DNA from: Williamsia soli
GTDB taxonomy: Bacteria > Actinomycetota > Actinomycetes > Mycobacteriales > Mycobacteriaceae
Direction of reading: 5' to 3'
Assembly (NCBI RefSeq): GCF_017377795.1
Contig: NZ_JAFRDR010000004.1
Location: 62,001 to 126,000 of the forward strand
DNA: 64,000 bases
The position numbers and the translations under genes were made by a program. The notes beneath the pieces are model-generated. The model had not been told where the DNA came from, searched no databases, and saw nothing but the letters and a program-made list of their open reading frames with translations. Positions 24,744 through 29,291 of the stretch are shown here, piece after piece; position 1 is the first letter of the stretch; every line of letters begins with the position of its first letter.

Positions 24744-25070
24744 GTGACCTATATCATCGCTGAACCTTGCGTTGATGTCCTGGACAAGGCCTGCGTCGAG
24801 GAGTGCCCTGTCGACTGCATCTATGAGGGTGGTCGGATGTTGTACATCCACCCCGACGAATGTGTCGACTGCGGTGCCTGCGAGCCGGTGTGTCCGGTCG
24901 AGGCCATCTTCTATGAAGATGATGTGCCCGACGAGTGGGCAGGTTATTACAACGCGAATGTCGATTTCTTCGACGACTTGGGATCTCCCGGTGGCGCCAG
25001 CAAGCTGGGCAAGGTCGACTACGACTCGCCGTTCGTCAAGGCCCTGCCCCCGATGAACACCGAGGACTGA
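24744..25070 (+). CDS. fdxC: Seven-iron-type ferredoxin FdxC
   Basis: The 108-residue ferredoxin has a first set of Cys (Cys9, Cys17, Cys21 and a nearby Cys in VECPVDC-like sequence) and a second set [12 protein letters not shown], the arrangement of 3Fe-4S/4Fe-4S actinobacterial ferredoxins. It transfers electrons to redox enzymes in the cytoplasm. GTG 24744 has AGGAGGG 6 nt upstream. It lies 8 nt before dapC, the same gene order as Rv1177-Rv1178 in M. tuberculosis. Confidence 0.93.
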
Positions 25071-25078
25071 CGACGCCG

Positions 25079-26194
25079 ATGTCTGTGCTGCGTGGCCGGG
25101 CGCCGGTGTCGAGGCGACTCCCGGACTTTCCCTGGGACACGTTGCTCGGTGCCAAGGAGCGCGCGGCCGCACACCCCGGCGGGATCGTGGACCTGTCGGT
25201 CGGTACCCCGGTGGACCCGGTCGATCCGCTGATACGCGATGCGCTGGCAGCAGCATCCGGTTTTCCCGGCTATCCGACGACCATCGGCACCGCGGAGGTG
25301 CGCAGGGCCGCGATCGATGCGTTGAAGCGCAGGCACGGCATCGATGGTCTGGACCTCTCTATGGTGCTCCCCGTGATCGGCACCAAAGAGGCGATTGCCG
25401 GGTTGCCGTCGACCCTGGGGCTCGGCGCGGGTGATCAGGTGGTCATACCGGAGGTCGCCTACCCGACGTACGAGGTCGGTGCTCTGCTCGCGGGTGCGGA
25501 GGCCGTCCGGGCCGACTCGCTGACCCAGCTGGGCCCCGCGACGCCGGCGATGATCTATCTCAATTCACCGTCGAATCCGACCGGCAAGGTGCTGCCTGTC
25601 GAGCATCTGCGCAAAGTCGTCTCCTGGGCGCGCGAACGCGGCACGGTGGTGGTGTCCGACGAGTGTTACCTGGGCCTGGCCTGGGATGACGAGCCCGTCT
25701 CGATCCTCGACCCGCGGGTGGCCGACGGAGACAACACCGGTCTGCTCGCGGTGCATTCGCTGTCGAAGACGTCCAACCTCGCGAGCTATCGTGCCGGGTT
25801 CCTTGCCGGTGATCCCACGCTCATCGGCGAGCTCCTGGCCGTACGCAAGCACGCCGGGATGATCGTTCCGTTCCCGATCCAGGCTGCGATGGCGGCGGCA
25901 CTCGGCGACGACGGGCATGCAGCCGAGCAGCGGGAACGCTACCGGATGCGCCGCGAGACCCTGAGAAACGCGGTGACCGGCGCCGGGTTCAGGATCGATG
26001 AATCCGCTGCCGGACTGTATCTGTGGGCCACTCGCGACGAGCCGTGTCGCGACACCGTCGCGTGGCTCTCCGAGCGCGGAATCCTCGCCGCACCCGGCGA
26101 CTTCTACGGACCCCGCGGAGCGCGGCACGTCCGGATGGCGTTGACCGCCACCGATGAGAGAATCGCTGAGGCAGCGAGCCGTCTGGCCTCCTGA
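25079..26194 (+). CDS. dapC: Succinyldiaminopimelate aminotransferase DapC
   Basis: The 371-residue protein is a fold-type I aminotransferase. The PLP-binding Lys lies in HSLSKTSNLASYRAGF, with the upstream YLNSPSNPTGK and SDECYLGL segments contacting the cofactor. It corresponds to Rv1178, annotated as DapC, which makes N-succinyl-LL-2,6-diaminopimelate in the succinylase branch of lysine and peptidoglycan-precursor synthesis. dapD and dapE, acting before and after it in the same branch, are also in this window. It follows fdxC by 8 nt and is probably co-transcribed. Confidence 0.87.
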   Translation: MSVLRGRAPVSRRLPDFPWDTLLGAKERAAAHPGGIVDLSVGTPVDPVDPLIRDALAAASGFPGYPTTIGTAEVRRAAIDALKRRHGIDGLDLSMVLPVIGTKEAIAGLPSTLGLGAGDQVVIPEVAYPTYEVGALLAGAEAVRADSLTQLGPATPAMIYLNSPSNPTGKVLPVEHLRKVVSWARERGTVVVSDECYLGLAWDDEPVSILDPRVADGDNTGLLAVHSLSKTSNLASYRAGFLAGDPTLIGELLAVRKHAGMIVPFPIQAAMAAALGDDGHAAEQRERYRMRRETLRNAVTGAGFRIDESAAGLYLWATRDEPCRDTVAWLSERGILAAPGDFYGPRGARHVRMALTATDERIAEAASRLAS

Positions 26195-26250
26195 CCTGCG
26201 TCGTCGTAGCTGTGTCCAATCTGAGACCAGTCCGTTACCCTTTACTTCGA

Positions 26251-26265
26251 AGTTTCGGTGAAACT
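26251..26265. promoter_or_regulatory. Inverted repeat in the promoter region of the MNIO operon
   Basis: AGTTTC-GGT-GAAACT is a perfect 6-nt inverted repeat with a 3-nt spacer, about 100 nt upstream of the MNIO start. The 170-nt gap after dapC suggests the operon has its own promoter, and this is the clearest operator-like site in it. The regulator is unknown. Confidence 0.35.
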
Positions 26266-26364
26266 GTGGACAAGAAGCAGAACTGACTACGAATCTGTAA
26301 CTCGGACAACGGATTCGAATGTGGCCAACGTCGTCCACTCGTGAGCGAGTGAAAGGACGCGCAC

Positions 26365-27267
26365 ATGAGGGCACAAGTCTCGGGTTCGACCATCGCGTGG
26401 CGCCCGGCCATCTCGGAGATGCTTGTCGGGCTTGCCGACGCCGGATCGCTGACCTTCACCGAGGTCGTTGCCGAGAACATGACTCCTGGCCGGTTGCCCA
26501 GCGGGGTCGAAGAACTGCGGACGCGGGGCGTGGTGGTGATCCCGCACGGGGTGGGACTGGGTCTCGCCGGAGCGGACCTACCAGACCCGGAACGGCTGAC
26601 ACATCTCGCGAGACTCGCGCGCGAGCTGGAATCGCCGCTGGTGAGCGAGCACATCGCCTTCGTCCGGGCCGCCGAGTCCCCGGATGTCATGCACGGGGAC
26701 GTGCTCGAGGCCGGCCACCTGCTGCCGCCGCCGCGGACGGGCCAGGCATTGGATGTCCTGTGCGACAACATCTCCCGCGCTCAAGATGTGCTGGGGGTGC
26801 CGTTGGCCCTCGAGAACGTCGCGGCGCTGATCGGCTGGCCGGAAGACGAGTTCGATGAACCTGACTACCTGACCGAGATCGTCCGCCGCACCGGTGTGCG
26901 GCTCGTTCTCGATGTGGCCAACCTCTACGCCAGTGCAGTCGCCCGAGGTTCAGACCCCGTGGCCGATCTGTGCCGATTCCCGTTGGCACACGCGGCGTAC
27001 GTCCATACGGCCGGTGGGCGCTTCCGGGAGGGGATGTACATCGATACCCACGGAGATCCGATGATCGACGATGTCGGGTCGATGCTCACGGCGTTTGTCG
27101 CGCACTGCCGCGAGGGTGGTCTGCCACTGCCCGGGATCATGCTCGAGCGTGACAGCGACGTCACCTCGGCCGCGGTGGCCGCCGACCTGGAGGTCATCGA
27201 CCAGATCATCGGTGCGGCAACCTCGCGCGGGCAGGAGGAATCGCGTGACCTCGAACCCAGCACGTGA
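26365..27267 (+). CDS. DUF692 / MNIO family peptide-modifying enzyme
   Basis: The 300-residue protein has the TIM-barrel motifs of DUF692 enzymes such as MbnB, TglH and bufferin MNIOs, which use a multinuclear iron centre and O2 to modify Cys or other residues in precursor peptides. Visible family blocks are AENM (36-39), IPHGVGLGL with His61, SEH (94-96), LLPPPRT (119-125), LALENV with Glu150-Asn151, LDVANLYAS with Asp183 and Asn186, VHTAGG with His214, IDTHGDP with His229, and MLERD with Glu261. ATG 26365 has GAAAGGA 7 nt upstream. It is the first gene of a tight four-gene operon with a partner and two Cys-rich peptides. Confidence 0.88.
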   Translation: MRAQVSGSTIAWRPAISEMLVGLADAGSLTFTEVVAENMTPGRLPSGVEELRTRGVVVIPHGVGLGLAGADLPDPERLTHLARLARELESPLVSEHIAFVRAAESPDVMHGDVLEAGHLLPPPRTGQALDVLCDNISRAQDVLGVPLALENVAALIGWPEDEFDEPDYLTEIVRRTGVRLVLDVANLYASAVARGSDPVADLCRFPLAHAAYVHTAGGRFREGMYIDTHGDPMIDDVGSMLTAFVAHCREGGLPLPGIMLERDSDVTSAAVAADLEVIDQIIGAATSRGQEESRDLEPST

Positions 27268-27718
27268 CGACGCCCGGGCAGCCCTCGCGGCACGGCAGCA
27301 CGCGGTGGTCACGGAACTGCTGGCCGGAAGGGTGCCGGCCGGGTTCGATCCGGTGGGGTCTGCCCTGACCAGTGACATCCTCATCGGAAAACGCGCATCG
27401 GCGGCCCTGCGGGCAGGACCGCAACTCCGCACGCTGCCTCAGTGGCGGCGCCGGTTCGTCGAGTACGGACGGCAGGTCGCGGTCAGCGGATGCGCGCACG
27501 ATGATGTCGCGGCGTTCACTCGGTGGCTCGGAACGCGCTCCGACCTCGACGGCGTGACGCGGGACTGGCTACGCGTCGAAAGGGTATACGCCGGCGCCAG
27601 GCGGACTGCGTGGGTGCGTTATCGCGGTAGGCGCGTGTTGATCATCGGGATCGGTTCGAACACTTGGCATCTAGCTGTTTCGCGACCACGAGAGAACGAG
27701 AAGGAGGGATTGTCATGA
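27245..27718 (+). CDS. MNIO partner protein (probable peptide-recognition component)
   Basis: The 157-residue protein overlaps the end of the MNIO gene by 23 nt. GTG 27245 is supported by AGGAGG 6 nt upstream. It is mainly helical, basic and without a signal peptide. The middle has HAVVTELLAGRVPAGFDPV and KRASAALR, and the C-terminus has a short beta-like RRVLIIGIG. Many MNIO enzymes work with a separately encoded partner that binds the peptide leader; position and size suggest that role here, but I cannot place it in a named family. Its stop overlaps the ATG of the first Cys-rich peptide (ATGA). Confidence 0.75.
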   Translation: MTSNPARDDARAALAARQHAVVTELLAGRVPAGFDPVGSALTSDILIGKRASAALRAGPQLRTLPQWRRRFVEYGRQVAVSGCAHDDVAAFTRWLGTRSDLDGVTRDWLRVERVYAGARRTAWVRYRGRRVLIIGIGSNTWHLAVSRPRENEKEGLS

Positions 27719-27960
27719 CCATTGCGGTGATTGTGATCGTCGGACTGGTGAGCGCAGCGGTGCTCTTTTCGACGAGGGCGTTCTACGGCGGCTCCGGGTC
27801 GGACACCGCCCGCCGACGTCGTCCGGGCGGCTGGGTCGGAGACGGCAGCGGCGGTGGCGGCGAGGGTGGCGGCGGTGCCTCCTGCGGGAGTTCGTGCGGA
27901 AGCAGTTGCGGGGGAGGGTCCTCCGGTGGTGGTGGCGGTTGTGGAAGCAGCGGCGGATAG
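27715..27960 (+). CDS. Cys-rich membrane-anchored peptide 1 (candidate MNIO substrate)
   Basis: The 81-residue product has a hydrophobic N-terminal segment (about 2-19), a basic linker (TARRRRPGG) and a Gly/Ser-rich tail with four Cys at 57, 61, 65 and 76 in the pattern CGSSCGSSCGGG. ATG 27715 has AAGGAGGG 6 nt upstream, an ideal ribosome site, and overlaps the partner gene stop. The positive residues after the hydrophobic segment favour a cytoplasmic tail, where the MNIO could reach it. It resembles no standard RiPP precursor I can name. The role as modification substrate is inferred from the operon and the regular Cys spacing. Confidence 0.78.
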   Translation: MTIAVIVIVGLVSAAVLFSTRAFYGGSGSDTARRRRPGGWVGDGSGGGGEGGGGASCGSSCGSSCGGGSSGGGGGCGSSGG

Positions 27961-27972
27961 GAGGGTGAGGCA

Positions 27973-28248
27973 ATGACAGTTCTCGTGGTGGTGCTGGCGT
28001 GTGTGGTGGGCGGGGCGGTGATTGCCCTGATCGCGGTCGTGGGGTCGCATTCGTCCAGGGTGGCCGATCGATACCGGGATGATTCCGGTGGCACGGGTGG
28101 GTACTGGAGCGGTTCGTCCGGTAACACCTGGGATTCTGGCCACCATCACGGCGACAACAACAGCTGCAGTTCGGGTAACTCCTGCAGCTCGGGTTCGTCG
28201 TGCAGCTCGTCCTCATGTGGCTCGGGCTGCGGCGGAGGCGGGGACTGA
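27973..28248 (+). CDS. Cys-rich membrane-anchored peptide 2 (candidate MNIO substrate)
   Basis: The 91-residue product has an N-terminal membrane segment (about 2-24), a charged linker (SRVADRYRDD), a His-rich spot (HHHGD) and a Ser/Gly tail with Cys65, Cys71, Cys77, Cys82 and Cys86, that is CSSGNSCSSGSSC followed by tighter spacing. It lies 12 nt after peptide 1, with GAGG just upstream of ATG 27973. The two peptides share design (membrane segment, basic linker, Cys-Gly-Ser tail) but not sequence. The His cluster could bind metal. It is the last gene before the strong hairpin at 28261. Confidence 0.78.
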   Translation: MTVLVVVLACVVGGAVIALIAVVGSHSSRVADRYRDDSGGTGGYWSGSSGNTWDSGHHHGDNNSCSSGNSCSSGSSCSSSSCGSGCGGGGD

Positions 28249-28260
28249 TCGGGCGCCCCC

Positions 28261-28318
28261 CCACCCGAATTCGCGCCGCCCACCGGTAACAACCGGTGGG
28301 CGGCGCAAATTCGGGTGG
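28261..28318. terminator. Long bidirectional hairpin between the MNIO operon and dapD
   Basis: Arms of 27 nt (28261-28287 and 28292-28318) pair with a single mismatch around an AACA loop. It lies 12 nt after the stop of peptide 2 and 22 nt after the stop of the convergent dapD gene, so it can end both transcripts. Confidence 0.75.
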
Positions 28319-28340: not shown

Positions 28341-29291
28341 TCAGTTGGCGTGCAGCGCTGCGTTCAGCTCGATGCCGTCGCCCTTCCACGGCACGACCTC
28401 AACCGCGCCGGTGGTGCTGTTGCGCCGGAACAGGATGTTGCTCTTGCCGGAGAGGTCGCGAGCCTTGACGACAGTGCCATCCGGACCGGTGACCTTGGTA
28501 CCGGCGGTGACGTAGAGTCCGGCCTCGATGACGCAGTCGTCGCCGAGCGCGATGCCGCAGCCGGAGTTGGCGCCGAGCAGGCATCGCTTCCCGAGGGAGA
28601 TGATTTCCTTGCCGCCGCCGGACAACGTCCCCATCGTCGATGCGCCGCCGCCGACGTCGGAACCGTCTCCGACGATGACACCTGCCGAGATGCGTCCCTC
28701 GATCATCGACTGGCCCAGTGTGCCCGCGTTGAAGTTCACGAAACCCTCGTGCATGACGGTGGTGCCGTCGGCGAGATGTGCGCCGAGGCGGACGCGACCG
28801 GCGTCGGCGATCCGGACCCCGCTCGGCACAACGTAATCCACCATCCGGGGGAACTTGTCGATGCCGTAGACGGTCACCGCACCGCGGCTCTTGAGCTTCG
28901 CGCGGGTCACCTCGAAGCCGTCGACCGCGCACGGGCCGAAGTTCGTCCAGACCACGTTGGACAGCTTGCCGAACACGCCGTCCATGTTCGCGCCGTGCGG
29001 GATGACGAGTCGGTGGGAGAGCAGGTGCAGTCGCAGGTAGGCGTCATGGGCGTCGGCGGGGGCATCGGCCAGCACGATCGAGGTGCGCACGGCCACGGTC
29101 CGGACGCCGCGGGCCGAATCGGTGCCCACCAGCGACGACAGTTCTGCGGGGGTACCGGCAGCGTCGAGTTCGGTGGTGCCGGATTCGCCCGCCTCGGTCA
29201 ATTCGGGGGAGGGGTACCAGGTGTCGAGCACTGCGCCCGAGTCGGTGATGGTGGCGATGCCGATGGCGGAGGCTCCAGATGCGTTGGTCAC
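28341..29291 (-). CDS. dapD: Tetrahydrodipicolinate N-succinyltransferase DapD
   Basis: The 316-residue protein matches actinobacterial DapD (Rv1201c): an N-terminal domain of about 110 residues, then a left-handed beta-helix with hexapeptide-type repeats ([23 protein letters not shown]-like region) and [12 protein letters not shown] near the end. It succinylates tetrahydrodipicolinate with succinyl-CoA, the first step of the succinylase branch toward diaminopimelate. The start is GTG 29291. TAAACT lies 8 nt upstream on the minus strand and could give a leaderless transcript. It converges on the MNIO operon at a shared hairpin. Confidence 0.93.

Follow-up and report, generated by a model that had tools for sequence, protein, structure and literature searches.

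A four-gene MNIO cassette encoding two short membrane-anchored Cys-rich peptides in Williamsia soli: a candidate compact variant of an actinobacterial system

Analysis of a 64,000-nucleotide stretch of the Williamsia soli genome (hereafter the window) revealed a cassette that encodes an MNIO/DUF692 enzyme, a partner protein and two small Cys-rich peptides. With moderate confidence, we interpret this cassette as a compact variant of an actinobacterial MNIO system, in which the peptides would be the substrates, their tail Cys residues would be oxidised, and the product would act as a membrane-tethered soft-metal ligand. The enzyme family, the conserved catalytic residues, the partner family with its fusions, the co-occurrence of the four genes, the purifying selection and the separateness from TIGR04222 systems are established by the observations presented below. 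Among MNIO products, those best characterised (methanobactin, bufferins, captophorins) are peptides that are either free or exported, whereas the candidate substrate here is an apparent membrane protein of 80 residues, small enough to be made and analysed whole; its TIGR04222 counterparts are multi-helix proteins. The cassette provides a simple system for asking whether these actinobacterial MNIOs modify Ser/Gly/Cys tails, and nature supplies two contrasts: one genome of the group lacks the cassette, and others carry both systems. The features of the locus are the following:

24744 to 26194, plus strand: neighbouring genes fdxA, for a ferredoxin, and dapC; both above the NCBIfam cut-offs (FdxA_Actino, DapC_actino)
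26195 to 26364, plus strand: leader region 5' of the enzyme gene, conserved among Williamsia
26365 to 27267, plus strand: MNIO/DUF692 enzyme P0001, 300 aa; PF05114 match
27245 to 27718, plus strand: partner P0002, 157 aa, PME-type 2-like; its relatives accompany related MNIOs or are fused to them
27715 to 27960, plus strand: peptide 1 (P0003), 81 aa; an RRRR linker joins the membrane segment to a Gly/Ser tail that has 4 Cys
27973 to 28248, plus strand: peptide 2 (P0004), 91 aa; the membrane segment is followed by a basic linker, a His cluster and a Ser/Gly tail that has 5 Cys
28261 to 28318, no strand assigned: hairpin with a 26-bp stem between peptide 2 and the convergent dapD; -60.5 kcal/mol, z -7.7
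28341 to 29291, minus strand: flanking dapD, convergent; NCBIfam DapD_actino above cut-off

On recheck, the gene coordinates given in the earlier note, together with the overlaps of 23 nt and 4 nt and the gap of 12 nt, proved exact, and the four-gene observation itself was confirmed as lying beyond chance by the PF05114 score, the conservation of peptide 2 and the pN/pS values. AGGAGG-type sequences, read from the DNA directly, precede the partner and both peptide genes. Peptide 2 has one further Cys inside its membrane segment, besides the five in the tail. The leader region showed a mean column identity of 85% over 6 sequences, in an aligned stretch that takes in gene ends; a promoter scan of this region gave no match to a sigma-70-type promoter. 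The leader region likewise showed no recognisable site for a metal regulator, and the cassette no recognisable metal gene; its neighbours are fdxA and the lysine-biosynthesis dap genes (with dapE further on, past dapD, as an NCBIfam equivalog above cut-off). All of these negative results are counted against the preferred explanation. The hairpin is likely the end of the operon, being terminator-like without a T-run, and it was not flagged by the terminator scan, which requires one.

The enzyme P0001 matched PF05114 with an E-value of 2.3e-57 and 194.7 bits (cut-off 25 bits), so the DUF692/MNIO assignment, made at first from the sequence alone, is upheld by the profile search; it is also the sole PF05114 match in the genome. 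Because P0001 scored under the cut-offs of all five NCBIfam MNIO equivalogs that it matched (BufB, HvfB-type, ApyH, ChrH and MbnB), it cannot be assigned to any of these types. By sequence it matched the solved structures 3BWW, 8HCI/8HI7/8HI8 and four MbnB entries. H61, H96, E150, D183, N186, H214, D227, H229 and E261 do not vary among the 30 MNIOs aligned; those that we take to be metal-site ligands, other than N186, D227 and H229, were assigned from the MbnB structures. These last three residues correspond by motif to N175, D242 and H244 of HvfB, which are essential (PMC13419390).

The partner P0002 itself had no Pfam or NCBIfam match and is not recognised by PF09836, and the profile of its family gave no relevant match in the PDB. 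An iterated HMM search of 123 loci detected relatives of P0002 in 114, either next to related MNIOs or fused to them, with 10 of these 114 matching over the first half of the profile only, and DUF2063 was matched by 11 of the 49 aligned family members (best E 4.6e-5). The recurrence beside MNIOs and the DUF2063 matches would together fit the PME-type 2 proteins, as described by Antoine et al. 2025 (PMC12452194). The nine loci without a partner match comprise three in which the contig ends just after the enzyme (L061, L086, L092), the Nocardioides orphan L045, L029, and the distant MNIOs L010, L134, L135 and L136. At 21 of the 123 loci the partner lies behind the MNIO and in its reading frame. 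Such fused frames were seen in many Streptomyces (L053, L058, L060, L062, L064, L066 and others), and also in L076, L088, L089, L121 and L127, the partner part being cut short in L088 and L089. These natural fusions resemble the engineered HvfBC fusion (PMC13419390). They also bear on the published claim that many TIGR04222 loci appear to be without partner genes (Antoine et al. 2025, PMC12452194), since in-frame fusions may explain some of this apparent absence. At 23 MNIO loci the stretch retrieved also contains a HemQ gene and a protoporphyrinogen-oxidase-type gene (Streptomyces loci L051-L118; NCBIfam matches for L058).

The window MNIO is 95% identical to that of Williamsia sp. 1135, 91% to that of Williamsia sp. 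1138 and 83% to that of W. limnetica. The nearest named relatives are thus Williamsia and not Gordonia, which the earlier note had named for a neighbourhood survey; the MNIO of Gordonia polyisoprenivorans (L106) lies outside the short-type clade and adjoins a TIGR04222 protein. The name is probably wrong for one record, titled Kitasatospora arboriphila NRRL B-24581 (L043), whose locus is almost identical to that of Williamsia muralis. Enzyme, partner and peptide 2 are each present in one copy in the same 8 of 9 Williamsia-group genomes. Peptide 1 was found by BLAST in 4 of the 9, and for the remaining four enzyme-bearing genomes an ORF scan located a peptide 1 gene at the corresponding position. 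In the ninth genome (G001), enzyme, partner and peptides were all absent by genome search; fdx, dapC and dapD lie together there, with 95 bp between dapC and dapD, i.e., an empty site. Enzyme, partner and peptide 2 are present together and absent together, as expected for peptides conserved with the enzyme.

Short Cys-tailed peptides were found beside an MNIO in Williamsia, Tsukamurella, Jongsikchunia, Aeromicrobium and two further genera. Apart from the window there are 22 short-type loci; fdx-dapC is directly upstream in 19, and dapD lies within the fetched stretch in 16 of those 19. L050, L121 and L127 are located away from this context, and L121 and L127 combine short-type peptides with a fused MNIO-partner at a different place; in G023 the dapC-dapD site is empty, with a gap of 61 bp. 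In L166 an ORF that looks protein-kinase-like stands between dapC and dapD, with no Cys peptide there. One antisense tail ORF and one labelled 'offset 2040' were dropped as spurious. A Nocardioides albus MNIO (L045:6001-6855) is 60% identical to the window enzyme, and neither a partner nor a Cys-tailed peptide was found nearby; this orphan falls within the short-type clade and is counted against our preferred explanation.

When the window was compared with three Williamsia relatives, pN/pS values were 0.17-0.31 for peptide 1, 0.06-0.44 for peptide 2, 0.18-0.29 for the partner and 0.13-0.27 for the enzyme. The peptides are under purifying selection, with pN/pS in or slightly above the range of partner and enzyme, and changes in tail length between the window and these relatives keep the reading frame. 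The association of the peptides with the enzyme suggests that they are its substrates. Alternatively, the peptides could be unmodified membrane-bound Cys/His metal ligands or redox scaffolds, with the MNIO acting elsewhere. Low-complexity tails of variable length and Cys count, in which no known recognition motif occurs, would suit such a role; however, the joint presence and absence of the genes in nine genomes, their overlapping order, the same pairing in several genera, and the same kind of tail in the separate TIGR04222-MNIO pairing make it improbable.

The short peptides, our preferred candidate substrates, are 75-121 aa long with one helix, and the number of tail Cys ranges from 3 to 7 with varying spacing. 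At most positions the Cys stands beside Gly or Ser, many peptides have His upstream, and at least one His follows the helix in 15 of 17 short peptides checked. Several features count on the other side: the variation in Cys count and spacing and the absence from the tails, as read by eye, of the EGKCG motif of characterised 5-thiooxazole substrates weigh against the preferred explanation, as does the lack of His in the tail of peptide 1. Neither peptide 1 nor peptide 2 matched any Pfam family at E up to 1, DUF2282 included, which agrees with the earlier statement that they are unlike bufferin-type families; this comparison covered Pfam, with the Buf2 profile of Antoine et al. outside it. Identity with the YxzE-like putative bacteriocins (PF25184) was considered and rejected, as was a GRP Pfam match that was weak in 2 of 27 short peptides; the weak Pfam matches lay under cut-off where read out. 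A modified peptide released as a signal or bacteriocin-like RiPP, instead of a metal ligand, would draw on the weak matches to YxzE-like (putative bacteriocin) proteins in 6 of the 27, the best reaching 28.4 bits. Three individually read scores (21.3-28.4 bits) are under the 40-bit cut-off and span the membrane segment and linker, neither window peptide is matched, and the cassette consists of four genes only, in which Pfam and NCBIfam recognised no protease, transporter or immunity protein. We consider such a released product very improbable.

To place the tails relative to the membrane, we relied on a rule of hydropathy and charge. According to the positive-inside rule, the basic flank of a helix stays cytoplasmic. 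All 17 short peptides checked lack Lys and Arg before the helix and have 3-10 of them in the 35 residues after it; by the same measure, which is not a signal-peptide prediction, the N-terminus is hydrophobic without a basic n-region. Since Lys and Arg occur only after the helix, the rule predicts an N-out, tail-in arrangement, and the tails are probably on the cytoplasmic face. The same enzyme-substrate relation could also operate with the tails facing outward, as extracytoplasmic copper or redox buffers of the kind proposed for TIGR04222 proteins. This arrangement is in line with the extracytoplasmic tails predicted for TIGR04222 proteins by Antoine et al. (PMC12452194) and with the Sec signal peptides of bufferins and oxazolin (PMC12452194, PMC13419390). 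The charge pattern, uniform in 17 of 17, points to a tail inside, and we regard outward tails as rather unlikely. On 66 long TIGR04222-type proteins the charge rule gave 45 tails in and 21 out, and all 10 of those counted with four helices came out as 'out'; the rule is thus ambiguous on long proteins, and we built no claim on their topology.

The relation of the short peptides to the TIGR04222 precursors was examined by profile searches and phylogeny. Both have a C-terminal Ser/Gly tail with interspersed Cys and adjoin an MNIO gene. TIGR04222 was matched by 66 of 66 long Cys-tailed proteins adjoining related MNIOs (from 71 long tail genes, five shorter or cut ones being left out), by none of the 27 short peptides scanned with E allowed up to 1 (from 33, with the two peptides of L006 and those of L130, L131, L121 and L127 left out), and by nothing in the window's genome at E up to 0.001. 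The gene caller misses many low-complexity genes, as in 34 non-short loci with no called tail protein, so that absence from the gene lists does not mean absence from the DNA. An MNIO phylogeny with 124 rows places the 23 short-type enzymes in one group with the orphan L045 (SH-aLRT 95); the label 'other' there (101 rows) means not short-type and does not mean proven TIGR04222. A careful tree of 49 rows drawn from those 124 has its 25 non-short rows on one side of a branch supported at 99/94. Among 22 genomes counted, all eight that carry a second MNIO besides the short-type one had TIGR04222 above cut-off, whereas none of the 13 with only a short-type MNIO did, nor did G001, which has no MNIO; a ninth genome with two MNIOs (G278) was left out of this count, its second enzyme (L134) being distant and not short-type. 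The eight two-system genomes belong to the Tsukamurella group and to one genus. Weak, stop-containing TIGR04222 matches below cut-off were seen in G005 and G007. Profile-profile comparison of short peptides and TIGR04222 proteins aligned only 9 tail columns, which indicates shared composition, not homology. We also considered the peptides as degenerate TIGR04222 genes and rejected this, given the lack of any TIGR04222 trace, the separate MNIO clades and the coexistence of both systems; on the same grounds, the short system is a separate, coherent lineage and not a remnant of the long one. At one locus (L117:7381-9330), two tandem TIGR04222 Cys-tailed genes stand beside one MNIO.

Based on these observations, we propose the following mechanism for the cassette. 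The two peptides would be the MNIO substrates, inserted in the membrane by one N-terminal helix without export. The DUF2063-like partner would dock the peptide and activate the di-iron MNIO, which would then oxidise the tail Cys in succession, with 5-thiooxazoles as the most likely outcome. The product may be a multivalent soft-metal ligand, with Cu(I) as first choice, that would stay tethered to the membrane, probably on the cytoplasmic face. MNIO-partner pairs turn Cys into 5-thiooxazole at a di-iron site that is mixed-valent and reaches its active state with the help of the required partner (PMC13419390), and 5-thiooxazole products bind copper (PMC13097082). This conversion removes four electrons (about 4 Da) per Cys and gives an absorbance near 305 nm (PMC13419390, PMC12452194). 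The Cys beside Gly or Ser, the His residues, the Lys/Arg pattern and this known MNIO chemistry lead us to favour modification of the tail at the inner face and a soft-metal role; from such features we infer the chemistry, the metal and the membrane side. A more far-reaching version, which we hold only tentatively, is that these are MNIO peptides that are never exported, a single N-out helix holding the oxidised Cys/His tail at the inner membrane face, where it would serve permanently as a redox relay or a multivalent ligand for soft metals; the class would have evolved apart from the multi-helix TIGR04222 system, with which it shares some genomes.

A system of this general kind has been described before, since MNIO loci with multi-helix TIGR04222 membrane proteins bearing Ser/Gly/Cys tails, and PME-type 2 partners, were published in 2025 (Antoine et al., PMC12452194). 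The earlier interpretation missed this description; its core, an MNIO with a partner and small membrane-anchored Cys-rich peptides conserved with the enzyme, stands. The window cassette shares with the TIGR04222 loci related MNIOs (about 45-52% identical to P0001), the same partner family, Ser/Gly tails with interspersed Cys and a membrane-bound substrate candidate. It differs in the one-helix precursor of 75-121 aa without a TIGR04222 domain, in the separate MNIO clade, and in a tail predicted to be inside, in contrast to the outside location given by Antoine et al. (PMC12452194). We found no description of the short form among the listed matches of open-licence PMC full-text searches, as far as titles and the starts of abstracts tell, nor in the accessible text of PMC12452194, with one possible overlap. 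The adjamnio-V group of that paper consists of very small proteins directly after MNIO genes and without structural relatives, and in most Tsukamurella-group loci the short peptides likewise directly follow the MNIO gene. Compared by description and not by sequence, the two may overlap; if they are the same, the variant is already in print, though not interpreted as precursors.

With bufferins and captophorins/oxazolin, the cassette has in common an MNIO with a partner, a Cys-rich ribosomal precursor and a simple operon. In those systems the precursors bear Sec signal peptides and the partners are of the full DUF2063-RRE type (PMC12452194). In the present one, the peptides show no DUF2282 match and, by reading, no EGKCG, and P0002 is without a PF09836 match. 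Membrane anchoring as such has precedents among MNIO products: lipoprotein signals are predicted in about 16% of Buf2, a helix is predicted before some Buf_EGKCG/EF-hand proteins (PMC12452194), and a lipidated MNIO product has been reported (PMC12636315).
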